Shown here one piece after another: positions 1 to 60,192 of a DNA stretch of 64,000 nucleotides. Below the pieces are notes generated by a model that saw nothing but the letters and a program-made list of their open reading frames with translations, was not told the origin of the DNA and ran no database searches. The first letter of the stretch is position 1. Each line of letters opens with the position of its first letter. The position numbers were made by a program, and so were the translations under genes. Source of the DNA: Bacteroidetes bacterium UKL13-3 (GTDB lineage: Bacteria > Bacteroidota > Bacteroidia > UKL13-3); the NCBI GenBank assembly GCA_001602415.1, contig CP012155.1, positions 682,001-746,000 on the forward strand. Direction: 5' to 3'.

Positions 1-467
1 AAATGACCATTTCCACTTTTAGCCGCAATAGATGATAGCAAAGTGAAGATGGTTGAAAACCCTAAACAGCCTAGTATAAGAGTAAGAAAATATATTCCGG
101 GCGATTGGGCCATATTCCCTAGTAAAGTGTTATAAACAGCAAAACAAATGAAGGCGATAAATACCATAAAAATGCTGTTGTAAATTAATTTGGCGATAAT
201 GATTTGTTGTGGTGAAGCTATATTGTAATAGTACAAAGAACGCCCGCGGCTCTCGCCCATAAAACCTTTTGCTACAGCACTAATGGAAGAGAATAATAAA
301 ATAATCCAGAACAAGGCATTCCAAGTAGGAGCATTTAGTATTTTTACGGCTAAAAAAACCAAAAAAACGGAAGACACAACATGCAATAAAATGCCGTTCA
401 ACGCATATCGCATGCGCCATTCCGTGGTAAGGTCTTTTTTTAGTAATGCAATAATTTGTGTGTTCAT
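1..467 (-). CDS. ccmB: Heme exporter subunit CcmB (5' part, runs off the window)
   Basis: The reverse strand from the ATG at 467 reads MNTQIIALLKKDLTTEWR and stays open to the window edge (155 codons). The pattern matches CcmB, the membrane subunit of the cytochrome c maturation ABC exporter: an N-terminal amphipathic LLKKDL-EWR segment, then the family stretches APTWNALFWIILLF and ESRGRSLYYYNIASPQ, between hydrophobic helices. In known systems CcmB works with CcmA and CcmC in moving heme to the periplasm. The 3' third is outside the window. The gene lies just downstream of the NamZ gene on the same strand, with a gap of about 6 bases, so they may be co-transcribed. The assignment rests on recalled family sequence. 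Confidence 0.85.
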   Translation of the reverse strand, partial: MNTQIIALLKKDLTTEWRMRYALNGILLHVVSSVFLVFLAVKILNAPTWNALFWIILLFSSISAVAKGFMGESRGRSLYYYNIASPQQIIIAKLIYNSIFMVFIAFICFAVYNTLLGNMAQSPGIYFLTLILGCLGFSTIFTLLSSIAAKSGNGH

Positions 468-473
468 CGAGCC

Positions 474-1664
474 TTATTTATAAAAATATACAAAGTCGGT
501 GTACAATAAATATTTTTTTCGTGTTACTCTAAATTCGTTTAGCTTAGGTTGCCAGCTTGCCCTAATTTCTGCTTCTGTTTTACCGGCAATAATCTGTTTT
601 TTTAGTTCATCTGTTCCAGCAAGTGTTGTGAAAAAATCAGTAAAAAAGGTCGCTTTTGAAGTGTCTTCTTGGTAAGCATTCATAATCCAATCTAAATATA
701 AACGGGGCTCTTTGTTGAATATGTTATTCACAAAATTAGTAACCAAACGTCCTCTACATAATTTATCTTTATAAGGTGGATTTTCGGCAACACCTGCAAT
801 AGCTTTTGGGGTAAAAGTGTAATCTCCTTTAGTGTTTTCCGGCTTTCCAAAACATTCAAACGGTTTGTCAGTTCCTCTGCCTAGGCTGTAATTAGTGCCT
901 TCGAAAAAGCACATACTTGGATACAACGCAATCGACTCGGCTGTTGGTAAATTAGGTGAAGGTTTTACTGGAAGTGAATAGCGATCGTTGTGCGTATATC
1001 CTTTCATTTTAATGATTTTGATATTGCAAGTCATTCCATCTTTTAACCATTTTTCACCATTAATCATCTGCGCGTATTCGCCAATAGTCATTCCATGAAC
1101 AACAGGTACCGGATGCATTCCTACAAACGATTGGAATTTTTTATCGAGCACAGGTCCATCAACATAAAATCCATTTGGATTGGGTCTATCCAAAATAACA
1201 AGTTGCTTTTTTTGCTCAGCACAAGCTTCCATAACGTAATGAAGTGTGGATATATAGGTGTAAAAACGAGCACCCACATCTTGAATATCAAACACTACAA
1301 TTTGAATATCTTTCAAGTCGTCTTTAGTTGGTTTTTTATGAGTGCCGTATAATGAGATTACTTTTAAGCCTGTTTTAGCATCTTTGTTGTTTTTAATGTG
1401 AACACCGGCCCCGTGATTGCCTCTAAAACCATGCTCGGGTGCAAAAATTGCTTTAATGGAAACCGGTAGTTTCTGCAACGAATCAACCAAATGAGTTTGC
1501 CCAATGGTTGATGTTTGGTTTACTACCAACCCGATTTTTTTTGCTTTTAACAATGGTAAATATTCATTCACTTGCTCGGCACCTGTTGTTAATTTTGGTT
1601 GAGCATACGTTACCTGAAACAAACAAAGCATAAAAAAACCAAGGAGCTTCTTATATTCGGACAT
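474..1664 (-). CDS. namZ: Exo-beta-N-acetylmuramidase NamZ family (DUF1343) protein
   Basis: The 396-residue product carries the conserved blocks of the DUF1343/NamZ family: VVNQTS, APEHGFRG, QDVGARFYTYISTL, LDRPNP and GRGTDKPFE. Characterised members remove terminal N-acetylmuramic acid from peptidoglycan fragments during recycling. I chose the ATG at 1664. It gives a standard signal peptide (MSEYKKLLGFFMLCLFQ, likely cleaved after TYA), so the enzyme should act in the periplasm. An upstream in-frame ATG at 1688 would overlap the divergent permease gene starting at 1670. Length is normal for the family and nothing looks broken. The family call is firm; the substrate is inferred from the family. 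Confidence 0.88.
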   Translation of the reverse strand: MSEYKKLLGFFMLCLFQVTYAQPKLTTGAEQVNEYLPLLKAKKIGLVVNQTSTIGQTHLVDSLQKLPVSIKAIFAPEHGFRGNHGAGVHIKNNKDAKTGLKVISLYGTHKKPTKDDLKDIQIVVFDIQDVGARFYTYISTLHYVMEACAEQKKQLVILDRPNPNGFYVDGPVLDKKFQSFVGMHPVPVVHGMTIGEYAQMINGEKWLKDGMTCNIKIIKMKGYTHNDRYSLPVKPSPNLPTAESIALYPSMCFFEGTNYSLGRGTDKPFECFGKPENTKGDYTFTPKAIAGVAENPPYKDKLCRGRLVTNFVNNIFNKEPRLYLDWIMNAYQEDTSKATFFTDFFTTLAGTDELKKQIIAGKTEAEIRASWQPKLNEFRVTRKKYLLYTDFVYFYK

Positions 1665-1669
1665 TCTAA

Positions 1670-2893
1670 ATGGGTTCAAGTTTTTCATATATTATAGCAA
1701 GACGACTTTCGCTGCAAAAAGGTTCCGGAACTTCGCGATTAATTATTCGCATTGCTACCGGAGCAGTTGCTTTGAGTATTGCAGTGATGATAATTTCGAT
1801 TGCAATTGTAAAAGGTTATCAGTCTGAAATACGCAGTAAAATTATCGGTTTCAGTACGCATATACAAATATCGAGTTTGGATATGAACAATTCCTTTGAA
1901 ACAACTCCCATTTATAGAGATACAGTTTTAGAGAAATTGCTCAAAAAAAACAGTCATGTAACTCACCTTCAACCTTTTGCTATTAAAGCTGGTATTTTTA
2001 AAACCAAGGAAGATTTTTCGGGTGTAGTATTAAAGGGCATTGATACCACGTATGATTGGCGCTTCATAGAGCAACACATCATTGCAGGAACAACACTTTT
2101 TTTGAATAAGGACAGTGTTTCGAATAGTGTTTTGTTATCAAAAGTATTGGCCGATAAACTAAAGCTGAAAGTTGGCGACAATGTTCTATTATACATTGCA
2201 CAAGAGCCTCCCCGTGTTCGCAAATTTACTATTTGTGGTATTTATCATACAGGTTTGGAGGAAATGGATAGGTTTTATGCTTTTGTTGATATACAGCAGG
2301 TGCAAAGGCTTAATCAATGGTCGGCCAATGCCATTAGCGGCTATGAAGTAGGGTTAGATACTTACGCAATGATGGATGAGGTTGCAACCGAACTATTAGG
2401 GAATTTGCCGTATTATTTAGAGATACATACCATTAGGGATTTATTTCCACAAATGTTTGATTGGCTCAATTTATTGGATTTAAATGTATGGGTAATTATT
2501 ATTCTAATGATTATTGTGGCATGTATAAACATGGCAACAGCCTTACTTATTTTAATAGTTGAGCGCAGCAATATGATTGGATTGCTCAAAGCAATGGGCG
2601 CCAACAACCAAAGCATATCGCGTATTTTTGTTTACATGGCCTCTTATCTTATTTTTTGGGGAATGATAATAGGTAATATTGTGGGTTTGGTATTGTGTTT
2701 ATCGCAGCAATATAGTGGTTGGTTTAAGCTTTCTCAAGAGGCCTATTATTTGAGTGAAGTTCCCATATTGTTGGAGTTTACAGATGTGTTATTTATTAAT
2801 ATGGGAAGTTTTGTTATTTGTTACATCGTTTTATTACTCCCTGCAACGTTTGTTTCTAAAGTTACACCCATTAAAGCTATTCGCTTTCAGTAA
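1670..2893 (+). CDS. FtsX/LolE-type ABC transporter permease
   Basis: The 407-residue protein has the LolC/LolE/MacB layout. One N-terminal membrane helix (about residues 25-50, IATGAVALSIAVMIISIAIV) is followed by a periplasmic core of about 220 residues. Three helices then form the C-terminal FtsX domain, with the motif VERSNMIGLLKAMGA between the first two. The closest functional idea is a lipoprotein-releasing or mechanotransmission permease of the inner membrane. Its ATPase partner is not adjacent; a LolD-like ATPase lies at 12589. The start at 1670 is only 6 bases from the start of the divergent namZ, so its promoter must lie inside namZ coding sequence. A TATATTCG box at 1652-1659 is a candidate. 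Confidence 0.85.
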   Translation: MGSSFSYIIARRLSLQKGSGTSRLIIRIATGAVALSIAVMIISIAIVKGYQSEIRSKIIGFSTHIQISSLDMNNSFETTPIYRDTVLEKLLKKNSHVTHLQPFAIKAGIFKTKEDFSGVVLKGIDTTYDWRFIEQHIIAGTTLFLNKDSVSNSVLLSKVLADKLKLKVGDNVLLYIAQEPPRVRKFTICGIYHTGLEEMDRFYAFVDIQQVQRLNQWSANAISGYEVGLDTYAMMDEVATELLGNLPYYLEIHTIRDLFPQMFDWLNLLDLNVWVIIILMIIVACINMATALLILIVERSNMIGLLKAMGANNQSISRIFVYMASYLIFWGMIIGNIVGLVLCLSQQYSGWFKLSQEAYYLSEVPILLEFTDVLFINMGSFVICYIVLLLPATFVSKVTPIKAIRFQ

Positions 2894-2897
2894 CTGT

Positions 2898-3851
2898 TTA
2901 CAATAGGATTGAAACAAGGTAAATAAGCAACGCTAAGTAAGCTGGTAAAAACAATACGAAAAGTGCAAATAATACTGAGTCGTAAAACACAGTTCCTTTC
3001 GTAAATAATTTACTCATTATCTGCATTGCCCAATAGTGAGGCAGGGTGATAACTGCTTTGTGAAAACCGGAGGATAGTATTGATGCAGATGCAGCTTTTG
3101 TATCTATAGGTATGGGTTGATAAAGAATTTCTAAAATATCGAGTTTGTTGCGCTCAGTTTTTTTTCATGAACGCATGAGTTGTTGGTGATCGGTGCTGTT
3201 GATTTGCAGCATTGGATTGAAATATGCCAACGTCTTGAGGCTTTCGGTAATTCGGCTATTTAGCCATTTTACAAAAGTAGCCCCTGATTCATTTTGTGTG
3301 TTTTCTGCTGAGGTAATAGCTTTTCCAACATTCAGTACAACTGATTTTCCTCCACCATCAAAATGTTCGTAGGTTAAACCAATGGGTATAATTACAGTCT
3401 TTTCAGTTTGCGGTTCGCTCCAAGCACGTTCAGCAATGCGAGCTGACCCTTTTTTGAGAGGACGTAAATACCAGTTTTGTTCACACCATCCCTCTCCAAA
3501 AATAAGTACCATCCCATTTTTTTTAGAATTTCTTGCGTAGCATCAAAAGTAGATGGGTTTTTCCCGATATTTTCTTTCCCTTCACTAATGCGATATACAG
3601 GCATTAGGTTGAAAGATTTGAGTATGCGGCTAAAAAATTTGTTGTTAAACGCATCGCCACGAGCTAAAAAATGAATAGGACGTTTCATAAAAGCAGCAAT
3701 AATCAGAGCGTCCAAAAAGGCATTGGGATGATTGGCTACCAAAAGTGCTGGTTTGTGGGTTGGAATATATTGCAGCCCATCAATATATCTGTCGCAAATA
3801 CAATTTTAGTCCGTTACGAACAATCCATTTGGTGGCATTGTACATTTTCAT
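2898..3851 (-). pseudogene. Decayed lysophospholipid acyltransferase (PlsC-like)
   Basis: Read across three lesions, the reverse strand encodes about 317 residues of a membrane acyltransferase: MKMYNATKWIVRNGLK, then the catalytic motif NHPNAFLD, FLARGDAF, an IFGEG block and a hydrophobic C-terminal helix (FALFVLFLPAYLALLIYL). The lesions are a frameshift at an AT run leading to TGA at 3780-3782, loss of one A in the A8 run at 3517-3524 (A9 restores ILKKNGMVLIFGEG), and an in-frame TGA at 3165-3167 beside another A8 run. All three sit at simple runs, so sequencing error is a real alternative to decay. A separate intact plsC-type gene lies at 11554, so loss would be tolerated. Confidence 0.8.
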
Positions 3852-6662: not shown

Positions 6663-7565
6663 ATGGGTACTGAATTTAAAGCATTACAATTATTTTCTCC
6701 AGACAATTGGAAACAATATGAACTTATAGATGCAGGAAATGGCGAAAAACTTGAACGCTTTGGACAAGTTGTTACACGTAGGCCTGAGCCTCAGGCATTA
6801 TGGGATAAATTACTTACCGAAAAGGAATGGCAGCAATTAGCTCAGGTTTCGTTTGTGCAAAAGGGTAGTCATAGTGGAGAATGGCGCAAACATAGGCCTG
6901 TTGGCGATAAATGGCAAATTAACTACAATCATGAAAAATTGAATATTACCTTCAATTTATCGTTAACTTCTTTTAAGCATATTGGAATTTTCCCGGAACA
7001 AGCGCTTAACTGGGATTTTATTTACAGAAATGTTAAGGCAATGAAATTGAGTGAGCCACCTAAGGTTCTTAATTTATTTGCTTACACAGGAGGTGCTTCA
7101 TTAGCTGCCAAAGCAGCTGGAGCAGACGTAACGCATGTTGATTCAATTAAGCAGGTTATCAGTTGGTCGCGCGAGAATATGGAATCTTCAAGTTTAATCG
7201 ATATACGCTGGGTTGTGGAAGATGCGTTGAAGTATGTGAAACGTGAGGCTAAACGTGGAAAGAAATACAATGGGATCATTCTTGACCCTCCGGCATATGG
7301 AATTGGAGCCAATGGCGAACGCTGGAAATTGGATGAAAATATCAATGAAATTTTAAAAGAGATTGCTCAAATACTGGAGCCAAAGCATAATTTCCTGATA
7401 CTAAATATGTATTCGTTGGGAATGAGTGCACTTATTACGGAAAACCTTATTAAAGGACATTTCGGTAATCAACGTAAAAACATGGAGGTTGGTGAAGTGT
7501 ATCTGCCTGCAACAAGCGGTTTAAAGCTGCCATTGGGTATTTTAGCTCGCTTTGCCAATCCATAA
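6663..7565 (+). CDS. SAM-dependent methyltransferase, RlmI/RlmK-like
   Basis: The 300-residue protein has the class I methyltransferase core of the rRNA methyltransferase group (PF10672 type). Motif I is LNLFAYTGGASLAAKAAGA, an acidic HVDS follows for SAM binding, and DPPAYG is motif IV. No PUA RNA-binding domain is visible at the N-terminus, unlike E. coli RlmI. A further in-frame start at 6585 would add 26 residues unlike the family, so I use the ATG at 6663. It lies between two LytTR regulators on the opposite strand; its stop is only one base from the stop of the second. RNA as substrate is inferred from the family. Confidence 0.82.
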   Translation: MGTEFKALQLFSPDNWKQYELIDAGNGEKLERFGQVVTRRPEPQALWDKLLTEKEWQQLAQVSFVQKGSHSGEWRKHRPVGDKWQINYNHEKLNITFNLSLTSFKHIGIFPEQALNWDFIYRNVKAMKLSEPPKVLNLFAYTGGASLAAKAAGADVTHVDSIKQVISWSRENMESSSLIDIRWVVEDALKYVKREAKRGKKYNGIILDPPAYGIGANGERWKLDENINEILKEIAQILEPKHNFLILNMYSLGMSALITENLIKGHFGNQRKNMEVGEVYLPATSGLKLPLGILARFANP

Positions 7566-7566
7566 A

Positions 7567-8307
7567 TTACATTTTGTATTTTTTCTTTATTTGGAAAAAG
7601 TAGTTTCGGCTAACCTCAAAAGGTTTGTCGTTTCCTTTCATAAACAACCTTCCAGTATCGTTGGCCCATTTCTCAATGCGCACCACATTTTGAAGGTTGA
7701 TAATGGTAGAACGGTGGATTTGGATAAACACGTCCTCAGGCAAACGTGCGTCCCAAATTTTAATAGAGTTATATGTAACACTCAATCGGCCATCCGCTAA
7801 ATAAACCTTTGTGTAGTTTCCGTATGCCTCAATATAGTTTATCTCATTTATTCTCACAAATGAAAGTTTGTTGTCAAAACTCAATAGAATGATATGATCG
7901 GGTCCAAACTTAGCATTTGCTTCATCACTCCAATTATCAGTTTCTTCCCACTTATTATTAACCTTTTCAACCGCTTTGGTAAGTCTATCGAGGCTAATGG
8001 GTTTCAATAAGTAATCAACCGCATTCAACTCAAACGCTTTAATTGCAAAATCACTGTATGAAGAAATGAATATAACCATTGGCTTGTAATCGATTTTGCT
8101 CAATAAATCAATAGATGTAAGTCCATTTAAGTCAATATCTAAAAACAGCAAGTCTGGTTTTTCTTCTTGAATAACATCTTGCGCTTGTTTAAAATCTGAG
8201 GCCTCGCCAACAACTTGTATTTTATCAAAATTAGTGAGTAGTTTTTTGAGTACCATTCTCATACTTTCAACATCATCAGCAATTACTGCTTTTATTACAT
8301 TTTTCAT
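7567..8307 (-). CDS. LytTR-family response regulator (second paralogue)
   Basis: This 246-residue protein has a receiver domain (ADD at 10-12, candidate phosphoacceptor D57 in LLFLDIDL, ISS switch, YLLKPISLDRL) followed by a LytTR DNA-binding domain (INEINYIEAYGNYTKVYL, IQIHRSTIINLQNV, FEVSRNYFFQIKKKY). No kinase gene is adjacent. It is convergent with the methyltransferase gene with no room for a terminator between them. The strong resemblance to the regulator at 5788 suggests an old duplication or a shared set of target sites. Confidence 0.9.
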   Translation of the reverse strand: MKNVIKAVIADDVESMRMVLKKLLTNFDKIQVVGEASDFKQAQDVIQEEKPDLLFLDIDLNGLTSIDLLSKIDYKPMVIFISSYSDFAIKAFELNAVDYLLKPISLDRLTKAVEKVNNKWEETDNWSDEANAKFGPDHIILLSFDNKLSFVRINEINYIEAYGNYTKVYLADGRLSVTYNSIKIWDARLPEDVFIQIHRSTIINLQNVVRIEKWANDTGRLFMKGNDKPFEVSRNYFFQIKKKYKM

Positions 8308-8365
8308 CGAGATTTTTAAATTACAAATTCGTACAATGTTTTTTCTGGAGAGTCGTGTTTTGTTA

Positions 8366-8391
8366 AATAGAATAACTCATTTAGCTACCTC
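8366..8391 (+). repeat. Left inverted repeat of the IS1595-type island
   Basis: This starts AATAGAATAACTCAT and continues TTAGCTACCTC. It ends at the stop codon of the truncated transposase. Confidence 0.55.
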
Positions 8392-8920
8392 AGTAAAAAT
8401 TTAACAGTTTAATTGGAGTCGCTTTTTCTTTCATCATCGAAGATATCAAAATATCGAACAAGTTAGGATTGTTTCTATTATTAAATCTCCAAGTAAACTC
8501 ATCAAGGTACGGTTGTAAATGTTTTGCTTGGTGATGGTTCCCTCTTAACCAGGCCTTGAGCATCATTACTTGCCTATGAAATAACCTGAAGTTGTTTTTA
8601 GGCACCGACACCTCCTGTTTTAGCCATGTAAATAAGTATTTCAAAGGTCTGTAACCTCGCCATTTATCAGTCCTTATTAATGCTTCCTTGCTTATATACT
8701 TTTGAAAAAACGGCTTCAATTGTTTCGTTCCAGCACTAGGTATTTGGTTGGCATAACATCGTACAATTCCCTTTTTCTTCATTTGTATTACCATCACTAC
8801 TTGTTTCTTCTTTCCTTTACTTCTGCCGGGTTTACCCGTTTCAGAACCTCCTACAAAAAACTCATCTATATCCACTTTGCCATCCAAAAGTTTAGGCTCT
8901 TTAATATTCATCGCCTTCAT
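8390..8920 (-). pseudogene. Truncated IS1595-family (ISXO2-like) transposase
   Basis: 176 residues cover the catalytic ISXO2-like domain: VDIDEFFVGG (first acidic residues), TDKWRGY (second), then LKAWLRGNHHQAKHLQPYLDE and FTWRFNNRN. The N-terminal zinc-ribbon region of about 120 residues that the family needs is missing. A TAA lies upstream in frame (8945-8947), and the sequence there is the tail of the other transposase. It is therefore a 3' fragment whose 5' end is lost at a junction near 8920-8945. Its sequence differs enough from the neighbour to belong to another IS1595 subgroup. Confidence 0.8.
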
Positions 8921-43837: not shown

Positions 43838-43870
43838 AAAAAGACGACTCACTAAGTCGTCTTTTTTTTG
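43838..43870 (+). terminator. Terminator of the ribosomal supercluster
   Basis: AAGACGACT (43841-43849) and AGTCGTCTT (43855-43863) form a perfect 9-bp stem with a 5-base loop, followed by T6. It starts 24 bases after the rplQ stop. Confidence 0.92.
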
Positions 43871-43956
43871 TATTGTTTTGCATGGTAGCGTGCAAAAAAG
43901 TGACATACAAGCAAACAAGTGTGTAGCGCATTGAATACTGCGTAAAATAGCTGTTT

Positions 43957-44096
43957 AACCTGAGTTCGGTTTAAGCCGCCAATGTCAATTGTTGTTCAAG
44001 TTGCTTGATAAGCTGAGGGTTTGTTTCCTCAATATCTTTTTTGATGGAAGGTTTTTTAGGAAAGAAAGAATACGCAGCAATTGCACTCATAATATT
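43957..44096 (-). repeat. Duplicated 140-base end of IS982
   Basis: These 140 bases are repeated directly and without visible change at 44097-44236, where they form the transposase-3' end of IS982 copy 2. The unit runs from the terminal AACCTGAGTTCGG to ATAATATT inside the transposase gene. GTTT precedes 43957 and also follows the far end of the full element at 45162, so the duplication arose inside one insertion. Confidence 0.85.
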
Positions 44097-45162
44097 AACC
44101 TGAGTTCGGTTTAAGCCGCCAATGTCAATTGTTGTTCAAGTTGCTTGATAAGCTGAGGGTTTGTTTCCTCAATATCTTTTTTGATGGAAGGTTTTTTAGG
44201 AAAGAAAGAATACGCAGCAATTGCACTCATAATATTAAGAAGAAAACCGCTGATAGAGCGATGTCTTGTATGTTCAACTTGACAAATGTTTTTTAACTCA
44301 TCATTTACGGTTTCAATCACGGACCGTTTCCTTAAAAGAAGTTTCTCTTCATTGCTCAATGCTTTAGATTTCATGTTTCTTCTTACAGCTGTAATGAGTT
44401 GTATACCGTTGCCAAAAAGCAGATCACTCAATGCTTTTGAGATATATCCCTTATCTCCAAATAGTTTTCCGAAAAGGTCTTTAGTCATATTGGTAATTGT
44501 TTTAGCATCTCTATCATCCACATTTCCTTTGGTTAGAAAGAAAGATAATATCTCACCTTTGTCGTTTATAATCAGGTGAAGTTTAAAGCAGAACCATCCC
44601 ATTGATGATTTACCAACCTCTGCGAAGCCTTTAAATGTTTTATTACGCTTTATCCTTTTGTTGTGACAAACACGCAGTACAGTAGAATCAATAAAGCTAA
44701 TGCCAGTGCACTCGCCTTTGCAACAATGATGGAGAAACAACATGAATGCAATAGCACAACGATGACTCAATTCAATAAACCTGTTATAGGAAACCAATCC
44801 GGGAAAATCTTCTCTTAAATGAACAGACACATAGTCCACATAAAAATGCTTGAAATTCCTGAATTGACCACCATGAAACGCAATCAGGAGTGTGATAATT
44901 TCAGAGTCACACATTCCGGCTTTTCTATTTCTTGTTTTAACGTTTGATGGTGCGGGTAATTGGTGTTTTGAATACAAAATTTCAAATTCATTGCAGAAAT
45001 CATCAACTTTTACAAAAGTTTCTGTAATTTTATCTCGTAGCATTGGTGTGTTTTTTATGTTTTTTTGGACTACAAAATTAACACTTCCAATGCTACTAAT
45101 TATTTGATTACCAAATAATTATAAACAAAATAATCAACACTTTCTTATCCCGAACTCAGGTT
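44097..45162 (-). mobile_element. IS982-family insertion sequence, copy 2
   Basis: 1066 bases, nearly identical to 16234-17303 in the opposite orientation, with the same ends AACCTGAGTTCGG and CCGAACTCAGGTT. It lies about 230 bases past the supercluster terminator, and together with the duplicated end is flanked by GTTT on both sides (43953-43956 and 45163-45166), a candidate target duplication. After it comes TTAGGTAAA, also seen directly after copy 1. Confidence 0.88.
44111..45043 (-). CDS. IS982-family transposase (copy 2)
   Basis: 310 residues, the same protein as at 16353 apart from a one-residue loss (WFCFK for WFFGFK) and a few substitutions (LFGDKGY, LLNIMS). DDE motifs FIDSTVLRVC, GNVDDRD and SVIETVNDELKN are intact. 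The missing residue lies just before the second catalytic aspartate region, in the strand FKLHLIIND, so activity is likely but not certain. Confidence 0.92.
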   Translation of the reverse strand: MLRDKITETFVKVDDFCNEFEILYSKHQLPAPSNVKTRNRKAGMCDSEIITLLIAFHGGQFRNFKHFYVDYVSVHLREDFPGLVSYNRFIELSHRCAIAFMLFLHHCCKGECTGISFIDSTVLRVCHNKRIKRNKTFKGFAEVGKSSMGWFCFKLHLIINDKGEILSFFLTKGNVDDRDAKTITNMTKDLFGKLFGDKGYISKALSDLLFGNGIQLITAVRRNMKSKALSNEEKLLLRKRSVIETVNDELKNICQVEHTRHRSISGFLLNIMSAIAAYSFFPKKPSIKKDIEETNPQLIKQLEQQLTLAA

Positions 45163-45382: not shown

Positions 45383-48300
45383 ATGAAGAAAATTGTTACG
45401 CATCTTATAGTGTTTATCTTATTTTTAATACATTATAGCACTTTTGCCCAAAAGCAAAATAACCAATGGCAATTTGGGAATAGCAAAATTAACTTTAATA
45501 CAAATCCACCGAGTGTAGTTGCTAGTCCTCCTTATTATGATCCTGACGGTTATAATTTATATTCTTCTGTTGCTGATAGAAATACTGGAAAATTATTGTT
45601 TTATGCGACTAAAAGTCAGGTTTGGAATGCTAATAATCAAAAAATGTCTAATGGTGACATGTTAAAGGATTCATCTGGTAGACTTGTAATGGTCCCTTTA
45701 GGTTCTGATTACGATTTTAGCCCATTTGTTATTGTTCCAAAACCAGGAAGCAGCAGTTTATATTACATCATAACTAAATCCGATTTTTACAATTATGACG
45801 ACAATACGCACTTTTCTGGTATATTTTATAGCGTTGTAGATATGACGTTGAATGGTGGATTAGGCGATGTTGTTTTAGGTCAAAAAAATAGGTTACTATT
45901 TCAAACTAAAGGTGGAGGGCCGGCTATGGCTGTTATTCCTGCTTCGGATGGCTTGAGTTTTTGGTTAATAGGATCGGATACTGCGGATGCTCTTTTTTCA
46001 TTAAAAATTGATAGCAAGGGCTTTCAAGCTACACCTGTGCGTTACAAAATAGGAGTTAATTTTTCTGACAACCCGTCGGTCTTCGACTTGAAAATTAATA
46101 GACAATTTAACAAACTCGCATTTGGAGATGTCCAAAGAATAAACATATTGGATTTTAATAACACAACTGGCGTTATATCAAATTTAATAAGCTGGCAACA
46201 ATATACAACAAACGTTGGATTGCTATCAACCGAATTTTCTCCAAATGGTAAAGTGTTGTATGTTAGCAATTATCAATCACTTGTTCAATATGATATTAGT
46301 AAAACCACAGGTGTGGCTATACAAAATTCTGCTGTTGTTTTGGAGGACATTACCCCCGGTACAGTCGAGCATAATGGCATCTTACAGTTGGCCAGTAATA
46401 ACAAAATATATTGCAATTGCGGTAAATTTCTTTCTGTTGTTAATTGCCCAAATAAATTGGGTGCTGCCTGTGGGTTTCAACCAACCGCAATTTCATTAGA
46501 CACATCATCATGGGAATTCTATAGCTTACCCCCATGGGTGTATTATGCAAGCGATGCACCAGCACTAATTTCAAATAGCATTGCTTATTCCGATTCGTGT
46601 TTTGGTAGGGCTACTCAGTTTTTTATTAAAGATACTACTGGCATATTAAATGTTACGTGGAATTTTGGTGACTCAGCAAGTGGAGCAAGCAATACTGCGG
46701 TAGGCTTAACTGCCAACCATGTTTTTTCAAAAGTTGGCAACTATACCGTTCGGGCAATAGTAAGTAATGCATGTGGCGTTGATACTTTATTTTTAAATAG
46801 GGTTACAATTATTAATTGTGTTCCAATAACAGGCTTTAACATCATAGGCGATACATGCAATGTTGCTACAAAGTTTACGTTTAAACCCATTGGAACAACC
46901 ACAGCAGATTCCCTAATTTGGACCTTTGATGACCCTAACAGTGGCGCAAATTCTTATATTTCATTTCCGGCCAACCCCAATGCCTTACATACATTTTCTG
47001 CCGCTGGCATTTATAAAGTATGCCTTATTTTACAGGAGCCAGGTTTTCCTTTAGATACTGTATGTAAAACGGTTAATATTGGCCAATGCTGCAACGGCAT
47101 TATCACAACAAAAGACTCGTGCCTTCAAAATAGTATTCCATTTTCAATTATAAATGATAGCACAATAACAAGTGTTACGTGGAATTTTGGTGACTCAGCA
47201 AGTGGAGCAAGCAATACTGCGGTAGGCTTAACTGCCAACCATGTTTTTTCAAAAGTTGGCAACTATACCGTTCGGGCAATAGTAAGTAATGCATGTGGCG
47301 TTGATACTTTATTTTTAAATAGGGTTACAATTATTAATTGTGTTCCAATAACAGGCTTTAACATCATAGGCGATACATGCAATGTTGCTGCAAAGTTTAC
47401 GTTTAAACCCATTGGAACAACCACAGCAGATTCCCTAATTTGGACCTTTGATGCCCCTAACAGTGGCGCAAATTCTTATATTTCATTTCCGGCCAATCCC
47501 AATGCCTTACATACATTTTCTGCCGCGGGCATTTATAAAGTATGCCTTATTTTACAGGAGCCAGGTTTTCCTTTAGATACTGTATGTAAAACGGTTAATA
47601 TTGGCCAATGCTGCAACGGCATTATCACAACAAAAGACTCGTGCCTTCAAAATAGTATTCCATTTTCAATTATAAATGATAGCACAATAACAAGTGTTAC
47701 GTGGAATTTTGGTGACTCAGCAAGTGGAGCAAGCAATACTGCGGTAGGCTTAACTGCCAACCATGTTTTTTCAAAAGTTGGCAACTATACTGTTCGGGCA
47801 ATAGTAAGTAATGCATGTGGCGTTGATACTTTATTTTTAAATAGGGTTACAATTATTAATTGTGTTCCAATAACAGGCTTTAACATCATAGGCGATACAT
47901 GCAATGTTGCTGCAAAGTTTACGTTTAAACCCATAGGAACAACCACAGCAGATTCCCTAATTTGGACCTTTGATGACCCTAACAGTGGCGCAAATTCTTA
48001 TATTTCATTTCCGGCCAATCCCAATGCCTTACATACATTTTCTGCCGCGGGCATTTATAAAGTATGCCTTATTTTACAGGAGCCAGGTTTTCCTCTAGAT
48101 ACTGTATGTAAAACGGTTAATATTGGCCAATGCTGCAACGGCATTATCACAACAAAAGACTCGTGCCTTCAAAATAGTATTCCATTTTCAATTATAAATG
48201 ATAGCACAATAACAAGTGTTACGTGGAATTTTGGTGACTCAGCAAGTGGAGCAAGCAATACATCAACTTCTTTAACACCTACACATTTATTTTCAGCAAT

Positions 48301-48676
48301 AGGCACATACAACATACGTTCTATTATAAATTCTTCGTGTGGTATAGATACATTGTTTAAAACCCTTGCAATAACAAGCTGCGACAGTACTATTGATGTT
48401 TGCGAATTATCCATTGCAAACGTATTTACTCCAAACGGTGACGGAATAAATGACAAGTTTTATCCATTAACTAAATGCACAACTGAGCAGTATGAATTCT
48501 TCATTTATAATAGATGGGGTCAACTGGTTTACAAAACAACTAACCAAACAGATAAATGGGATGGAAAATATAGAGAAGAAGACTGTTCAGAAGGAGTTTA
48601 TATGTACTTAATACGATATAAATATCCAACACAACCTGCCAAAAACGTTTACGGGTCAATTTCTCTTTTAAGGTAG
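45383..48676 (+). CDS. Large T9SS-secreted protein with three identical-type PKD repeat units
   Basis: 1097 residues. A signal peptide (MKKIVTHLIVFILFLIHYSTFAQ) is followed by a propeller-like N-terminal region up to about 400 (repeated short blocks such as NGKVLYVSNYQSLVQYDIS). Three 174-residue units (about 424-945) follow, each with WNFGDSASGASN and HVFSKVGNYTVRAIVSNACGVDT in part (PKD-type fold) and CCNGIITTKDSC. A partial fourth unit and a type B (gliding-motility-type) C-terminal sorting domain (VFTPNGDGINDKFYP, YNRWGQLVYKT, WDGKYREEDCSEGVY) complete it. It should be exported to the cell surface through the type IX system, perhaps as an adhesin; the ligand is unknown. Confidence 0.88.
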   Translation: MKKIVTHLIVFILFLIHYSTFAQKQNNQWQFGNSKINFNTNPPSVVASPPYYDPDGYNLYSSVADRNTGKLLFYATKSQVWNANNQKMSNGDMLKDSSGRLVMVPLGSDYDFSPFVIVPKPGSSSLYYIITKSDFYNYDDNTHFSGIFYSVVDMTLNGGLGDVVLGQKNRLLFQTKGGGPAMAVIPASDGLSFWLIGSDTADALFSLKIDSKGFQATPVRYKIGVNFSDNPSVFDLKINRQFNKLAFGDVQRINILDFNNTTGVISNLISWQQYTTNVGLLSTEFSPNGKVLYVSNYQSLVQYDISKTTGVAIQNSAVVLEDITPGTVEHNGILQLASNNKIYCNCGKFLSVVNCPNKLGAACGFQPTAISLDTSSWEFYSLPPWVYYASDAPALISNSIAYSDSCFGRATQFFIKDTTGILNVTWNFGDSASGASNTAVGLTANHVFSKVGNYTVRAIVSNACGVDTLFLNRVTIINCVPITGFNIIGDTCNVATKFTFKPIGTTTADSLIWTFDDPNSGANSYISFPANPNALHTFSAAGIYKVCLILQEPGFPLDTVCKTVNIGQCCNGIITTKDSCLQNSIPFSIINDSTITSVTWNFGDSASGASNTAVGLTANHVFSKVGNYTVRAIVSNACGVDTLFLNRVTIINCVPITGFNIIGDTCNVAAKFTFKPIGTTTADSLIWTFDAPNSGANSYISFPANPNALHTFSAAGIYKVCLILQEPGFPLDTVCKTVNIGQCCNGIITTKDSCLQNSIPFSIINDSTITSVTWNFGDSASGASNTAVGLTANHVFSKVGNYTVRAIVSNACGVDTLFLNRVTIINCVPITGFNIIGDTCNVAAKFTFKPIGTTTADSLIWTFDDPNSGANSYISFPANPNALHTFSAAGIYKVCLILQEPGFPLDTVCKTVNIGQCCNGIITTKDSCLQNSIPFSIINDSTITSVTWNFGDSASGASNTSTSLTPTHLFSAIGTYNIRSIINSSCGIDTLFKTLAITSCDSTIDVCELSIANVFTPNGDGINDKFYPLTKCTTEQYEFFIYNRWGQLVYKTTNQTDKWDGKYREEDCSEGVYMYLIRYKYPTQPAKNVYGSISLLR
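46652..48261 (+). repeat. Three 522-base tandem repeats plus a partial fourth
   Basis: The string GTTACGTGGAATTTTGGTGA starts at 46652, 47174, 47696 and 48218, a period of exactly 522 bases (174 codons). The three full units differ at only a handful of bases (for example GATGACCCT, GATGCCCCT, GATGACCCT). The fourth unit matches for about 44 bases and then diverges. Confidence 0.93.
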
Positions 48677-48962
48677 TGACAGAATAAAATGAATTAACGT
48701 ATTTAAATAAAATTACCCTTGTACTTGTTGGTGTTTTCTGTAATGTATAACTCATTGCACAACCTAAATGGAAATCAACAAAAATATGAAATGTAGTTGG
48801 GTTTATATTTTTTACACTGGGTCTTTTTCTTTATGTATATGAAGATTTTTTATGGTAGAATAGTAGTTGCTTATGAACTTTCGAAAATCTATTAAAGATT
48901 AAGCTAAAAATAAAAGGGTTAGCAAGTATTGTTTTGCATGGTGAGTAAAGAAAAAATATCAT

Positions 48963-59885: not shown

Positions 59886-60035
59886 TGTTTATCCAGATAT
59901 TATTACCGACCCCGCGAATATAGCAGTTTCGCCATTTTTTTGTAATGGTTACCCATAAAAGTGGAACCTCAAAGGCTGTCTGTTCTTGATATTAACGTAT
60001 TTGCCTTCTTCTTTTTTAAGCAATAACTCATTAAC

Positions 60036-60192
60036 CCAATAACTCATTTACTCATTCACTCATTTACTCATTCACTCATTCACTCATTTACTCATTCACC
60101 TAATAACTTATTTACTCATTCACTCATTTACTCATTCACTCATTTACTCATTCACCTAATAACTTATTTACTCAATAACTCTTTCACCCGAT
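60036..60192. repeat. Tandem TTTACTCATTCACTCA-type repeat in the fbp leader gap
   Basis: The 381-base gap 59886-60266 contains about 155 bases built from ACTCATTTACTCATTC units. A higher-order unit (TTCACCTAATAACTTATTTACTCA) recurs with a 56-base period at 60095 and 60151. No gene is present. A TATATTCG box at 60230-60237, 29 bases before fbp, may be its -7 element, without an obvious TTG partner. Confidence 0.75.

Follow-up and report, generated by a model that had tools for sequence, protein, structure and literature searches.

Probable in-frame expansion of a two-PKD segment in a predicted T9SS type B surface protein of Bacteroidetes bacterium UKL13-3

Large proteins usually avoid tandem domains that are nearly identical, and where such domains do occur they often, according to the available part of PMC8201768, mark surface proteins in which length matters. 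A predicted surface protein encoded in the 64-kb window (the whole stretch of DNA analysed here) carries three such units in a row, which raises the questions of how the array arose and whether the number of units is a means of changing the length of the protein. The gene, its parts and its upstream neighbour are as follows.

44093–45162, − strand: IS982-family insertion sequence, upstream neighbour outside the array (NF033520, E = 3.6e-73; limits taken from other copies in the genome)
45383–48676, + strand: surface-protein gene, open ORF of 1097 aa with PKD_4/PKD, CHU_C and TIGR04131 matches and seven PKD domains
45383–45448, + strand: likely signal peptide, residues 1–22, read by eye from the sequence
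45449–46588, + strand: N-terminal domain, beta-propeller-like, conserved in relatives (AlphaFold2 model; Foldseek matches mostly WD40-type)
46589–46819, + strand: PKD domain A1, with unique front half (PKD HMM)
46651–47172, + strand: repeat unit 1, 522 bp (lag and unit-to-unit comparison)
47173–47694, + strand: repeat unit 2, 522 bp, 99.2% identical to unit 1
47695–48216, + strand: repeat unit 3, 522 bp, 98.9% identical to unit 1 and 99.2% to unit 2
48155–48382, + strand: PKD domain A4, with unique back half (PKD HMM)
48217–48261, + strand: partial fourth copy, a 45-bp PKD core equal to 46651–46695; likely crossover seed
48410–48673, + strand: C-terminal T9SS type B sorting domain (CHU_C / TIGR04131)

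Self-comparison at a lag of 522 places the array at 46651–48261, that is, 3 × 522 bp (174 codons) plus 45 bp. Along the ORF, the lag-522 profile is unrelated up to about 46590, part-similar to 46650 and near-identical from there to 48261; elsewhere in the window, identity at this lag averages 0.27 and peaks at 0.43 per 150 bp. When lags from 60 to 3000 were scanned, 80% identity over 150 bp was reached only at 140, 522 and 1044. The array is missing from the TRF output because the period limit used, 500, is below 522. An earlier note on this DNA had described a 522-bp period with three units and a partial fourth, the units a few bases apart, and both points are borne out: unit pairs 1–2, 1–3 and 2–3 differ at 4, 6 and 4 of 522 bases (98.9–99.2% identical). 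Its coordinates for the repeats, 45383–48676, are right for the gene but too wide for the array proper.

The protein contains seven PKD domains in the order A1-B1-A2-B2-A3-B3-A4, as counted with an HMM seeded with three of its own PKD domains and then rebuilt from the matches, and each 174-residue unit covers an A domain and a B domain. The inner A domains, A2 and A3, are 100% identical to each other. Pfam searches of the 1097-residue sequence gave PKD_4 at 177.6 bits in six stretches and CHU_C at 69.4 bits (cut-off 27), and NCBIfam gave TIGR04131, the T9SS type B sorting domain, at 55.5 bits (cut-off 35). Among the T9SS genes searched for in the same genome, SprA was found at 2557 bits and the PorP/SprF family in three genes above cut-off. 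This, together with the TIGR04131 and CHU_C tail, supports the prediction of a T9SS type B surface protein, as the earlier note had proposed. TIGR04131 matches 21 places in this genome, 16 of them at or above cut-off; 15 regions, which cover 16 of the 20 other places, are without a repeat of at least 80% over 150 bp.

The head, residues 23–402, is conserved across 22 aligned sequences, and its AlphaFold2 model is a beta-propeller (pLDDT 78.5, pTM 0.81) whose best Foldseek matches, with TM-scores of 0.24–0.50 on the query, are for the most part propellers of the WD40 type. On the strength of this model, the fold class is likely to be a beta-propeller. No Pfam family was found in the head of the window protein, and the heads of the 22 aligned sequences gave weak, scattered Pfam matches, of propeller type and others. 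Searched by sequence against solved structures, the protein had a sole match, an endoglucanase chain (E = 0.0022) that aligns with part of the last PKD domain. The model of an A-B-A piece of the stalk consists almost wholly of beta structure (pLDDT 81.6); its pTM of 0.44 leaves the arrangement of the domains uncertain. Its structural matches are Ig-like and fibronectin-type tandem domains with low TM-scores (0.18–0.45 on the query), and they include, also at low TM-scores, segments of SiiE and of GhpA, the grappling-hook protein of Aureispira. The likeliest reading is that the PKD domains form a stalk that sets the distance of the head from the cell; the role as an adhesin raised in the earlier note is putative. 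Because 522 is a multiple of three, a change in copy number would alter the length of the protein and leave the gene switched on, so phase variation in the on/off sense, which the earlier note had suggested, does not apply.

To place the array in context, we compared 33 relatives that have a propeller-like head, a PKD stalk and a T9SS type B tail: five from one genome collection and 28 loci from another, not all independent, as some are probably the same genome twice judging from their protein sequences (L067 and G019, L066 and G008). The 28 loci came from a scan of named genomes with an alignment query, and none has near-identical units; an earlier scan of named genomes with a single protein as query had found no relative. 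The relatives have five PKD domains in one case, four in one, three in nine, two in 14, one in five and none in three, counts that include genes interrupted by contig ends or broken frames. Seven of the nine three-PKD relatives align as A-B-A, that is, with one unit (G019/L009, G008/L010, L063, L064, L066, L067 and L068), although most relatives are draft metagenome assemblies, from which near-identical repeats can drop out, and some one-unit counts may be too low. The check that the earlier note had proposed, copy number of the unit in related genomes, thus gives one unit in seven of 33 and seven PKD domains in 0 of 33. Without two of its units (348 aa), the window protein would be 749 aa long and is co-linear with relatives of 735–740 aa. 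The closest relative is L063, 64% identical over the stalk.

Within the matched region, DNA repeats of at least 80% over 150 bp were found in two of the 33 relatives, L075 and L081 (the latter at 80%). L075 carries its own two-PKD duplication at 7390–8232, 579 bp long and 88.7% identical over the best 150 bp, which, judged by its sequence, is an older, separate event. Repeats in L064, L070 and L082 fall partly or wholly outside the gene; in L082, a 231-bp repeat (7949–8421, best 150 bp 94% identical) directly follows the relative of the gene. L072 and L076 have a glycine-rich ALK_LTK_GRD domain in place of the middle of the stalk, L072 with a SprB repeat as well, and L074, a T9SS-type PKD relative, is filed under the title 'Streptomyces griseus', a label that is probably wrong.

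How, then, did one unit become three? Domains A1 and A4 have in common an exact run of 45 bp (46651–46695 and 48217–48261), a core that is identical in all four A domains, and on either side of it their identity drops, to 53–56% on the left and 43–53% on the right. A2 and A3 are chimeric, equal to A4 before the run and to A1 after it, which is the product expected from unequal exchange or slippage inside the run. In the five relatives tested, the back half of A2/A3 is nearer to the first PKD domain than to the last in all five, and the front half (24 aa) is mixed, nearer to the last in three and slightly nearer to the first in two. In L063, the only direct repeat of at least 40 nt is the same PKD core (48 nt, 79% identical, spacing 528), so that a less perfect crossover seed exists in a one-unit gene. 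We consider it probable that a two-PKD segment was expanded in frame by unequal recombination or slippage at the PKD core, lengthening the stalk. The exact pathway that we infer would start from an ancestral protein with a propeller-like head, three PKD domains (A1-B-A4) and a T9SS type B tail, as in the relatives. The PKD-core DNA, identical in A1 and A4, would then have served for unequal recombination or replication slippage and so for an in-frame duplication of the two-domain, 522-bp segment; a further event would have brought the number of units to three, A1-B-A-B-A-B-A4, with 348 residues added to the stalk. With the longer stalk, the head would stand at a greater distance from the outer membrane, and the copy number could presumably change again.

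That surface proteins can change their length by copying stalk repeats is already known. In the available parts of PMC8201768 and PMC9704523, Periscope Proteins are a class defined by variation between strains, and the sequence criterion of PMC8201768 is tandem repeats of more than 50 residues with an identity of at least 80%; units of 174 residues with 98.9–99.2% DNA identity place the window protein within that range. Like the Periscope Proteins described there (SasG, Rib, Sgo_0707 and CdrA), it has long, near-identical, folded tandem repeats running from an N-terminal domain to a C-terminal surface tail, and in both the high DNA identity of the repeats invites recombination. It differs from them in having a unit made of two different PKD domains and predicted T9SS export, and the likeness is one of sequence. 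The terms 'PKD' and 'type IX' are absent from the available main text of PMC9704523.

The window protein also resembles the Bacteroidetes fibrillar adhesin-like proteins with a CHU_C anchor in PMC8286594, as far as that source is available, in its CHU_C tail and repeated domains; 134 such proteins with CHU_C are counted there, all from Bacteroidetes. Unlike them, it has a propeller-like head and no recognised adhesive domain, and PKD is absent from the main text of PMC8286594 as available. With other PKD-repeat T9SS cargo it shares the order of PKD_4/PKD followed by a CHU_C / TIGR04131 tail, but the most similar PKD pair within each of the relatives compared is 36–53% identical (78% in L075), against 100% for its inner A domains. 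Among the open-licence papers searched, none came to light that describes variation in repeat number for a PKD/T9SS protein. The case is of value in that an expansion has been caught with the ancestral form A1-B-A4 surviving in relatives and the likely crossover seed readable to the base, and in that it concerns T9SS cargo, whereas the examples in the available parts of PMC8201768 and PMC9704523 are sortase-anchored proteins and autotransporters. Variation in copy number within the species, if it exists, would add to its importance.

The differences between the units bear on what the array represents. Seven sites vary across the three units, five of them synonymous and two changing a residue (T/A and D/A), and private variants number three in unit 1, one in unit 2 and three in unit 3. 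If all single-base changes were equally likely, at least five synonymous sites in seven would occur with P = 0.009, a value that a transition bias would raise somewhat; on this evidence, the units look like true diverged copies rather than products of base-call or assembly error, and the bias implies that the added units have probably been under constraint. With 119.7 synonymous sites per unit of 522, synonymous divergence across the unit pairs is 1.7, 2.6 and 4.3%, which suggests that the present array is not under constant replacement and argues against very fast turnover.

We are close to half persuaded that the array is a neutral, one-off domain duplication, with a longer stalk as its outcome and no role for variability. 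Near-identical units occur only in the window protein among the 34 compared, and their divergence implies that the array has persisted for some time, as such an event would predict; the constraint on the added units implied by the synonymous bias (five of seven) fits it less well, as does the fact that a second lineage, that of L075, has likewise duplicated two PKD domains. It is also possible, although we hold this more tentatively, that the protein is a true length-variable 'periscope' protein whose number of units shifts frequently within the species, with selection in favour of variation, which is compatible with an origin by recombination or slippage. The 174-residue, 99% identical, folded tandem units between head and surface tail fit the sequence criteria given in the available part of PMC8201768, and the number of PKD domains varies among relatives, but the synonymous divergence is easier to reconcile with an array that has been fairly stable than with one that turns over constantly. 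In its full form, to which we give guarded credence, the proposal would be that of a T9SS-exported periscope protein in which a two-PKD module expands and contracts at the PKD core, changing the stalk in 174-residue steps within one Bacteroidota population, on an accessory segment beside an insertion sequence.

That the array is old and its units have been kept alike by gene conversion is improbable: near-identical units would be expected here too, and conversion patches would be invisible because, with three units, each two-state variant is a singleton, but the close relatives have one unit and the boundaries of the chimeric domains match a crossover. Least likely is an assembly artefact with false extra copies, since, error-prone as tandem repeats are in assembly, the genome is a single contig, 99.96% complete, 16 near-full-length, ~99% identical IS982 copies are placed apart in it, and the seven variable sites show a coding bias expected from evolution and not from error. 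In-frame expansion at the PKD core remains our preferred origin. The earlier note had offered recent expansion or gene conversion; the one-unit relatives, the ~99% identity and the chimeric inner domains favour the former, and conversion is not needed.

The gene is accessory and patchily distributed. A match to its head at E 1e-60 or better occurs in eight of 395 genomes of the class, its own included, and one at E 1e-30 or better in eight of 64 genomes of the family. A genome of the same genus (G001) lacks the gene, with rplQ lying just 110 bp from the thioredoxin gene; in the window this distance is 5.4 kb and holds an IS982 copy and the surface-protein gene. A 17-bp exact direct repeat (43870–43886 and 48926–48942), with no other exact occurrence in the 3.24-Mb genome, brackets these two, and around a segment missing from G001 it is possibly an insertion scar.

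We rejected the insertion sequence as a cause of the array, as it stops 220 bp short of the start codon, and both boundaries of the array are PKD cores within the gene. IS982 occupies 21 places in the genome, the 16 near-full-length copies (44093–45162 included) and five partial ones, and by their sequence likeness the copies reflect a recent burst. At 43955–44238, the left end of the element is present as a perfect tandem duplication with a period of 140 bp (2.0 copies), and the extra left-end copy is covered by none of the 20 other matches in the genome. Elsewhere in the window, at 60026–60187, lies a tandem array of about 20 copies of an 8-bp unit, for which a 16-bp period scores higher.
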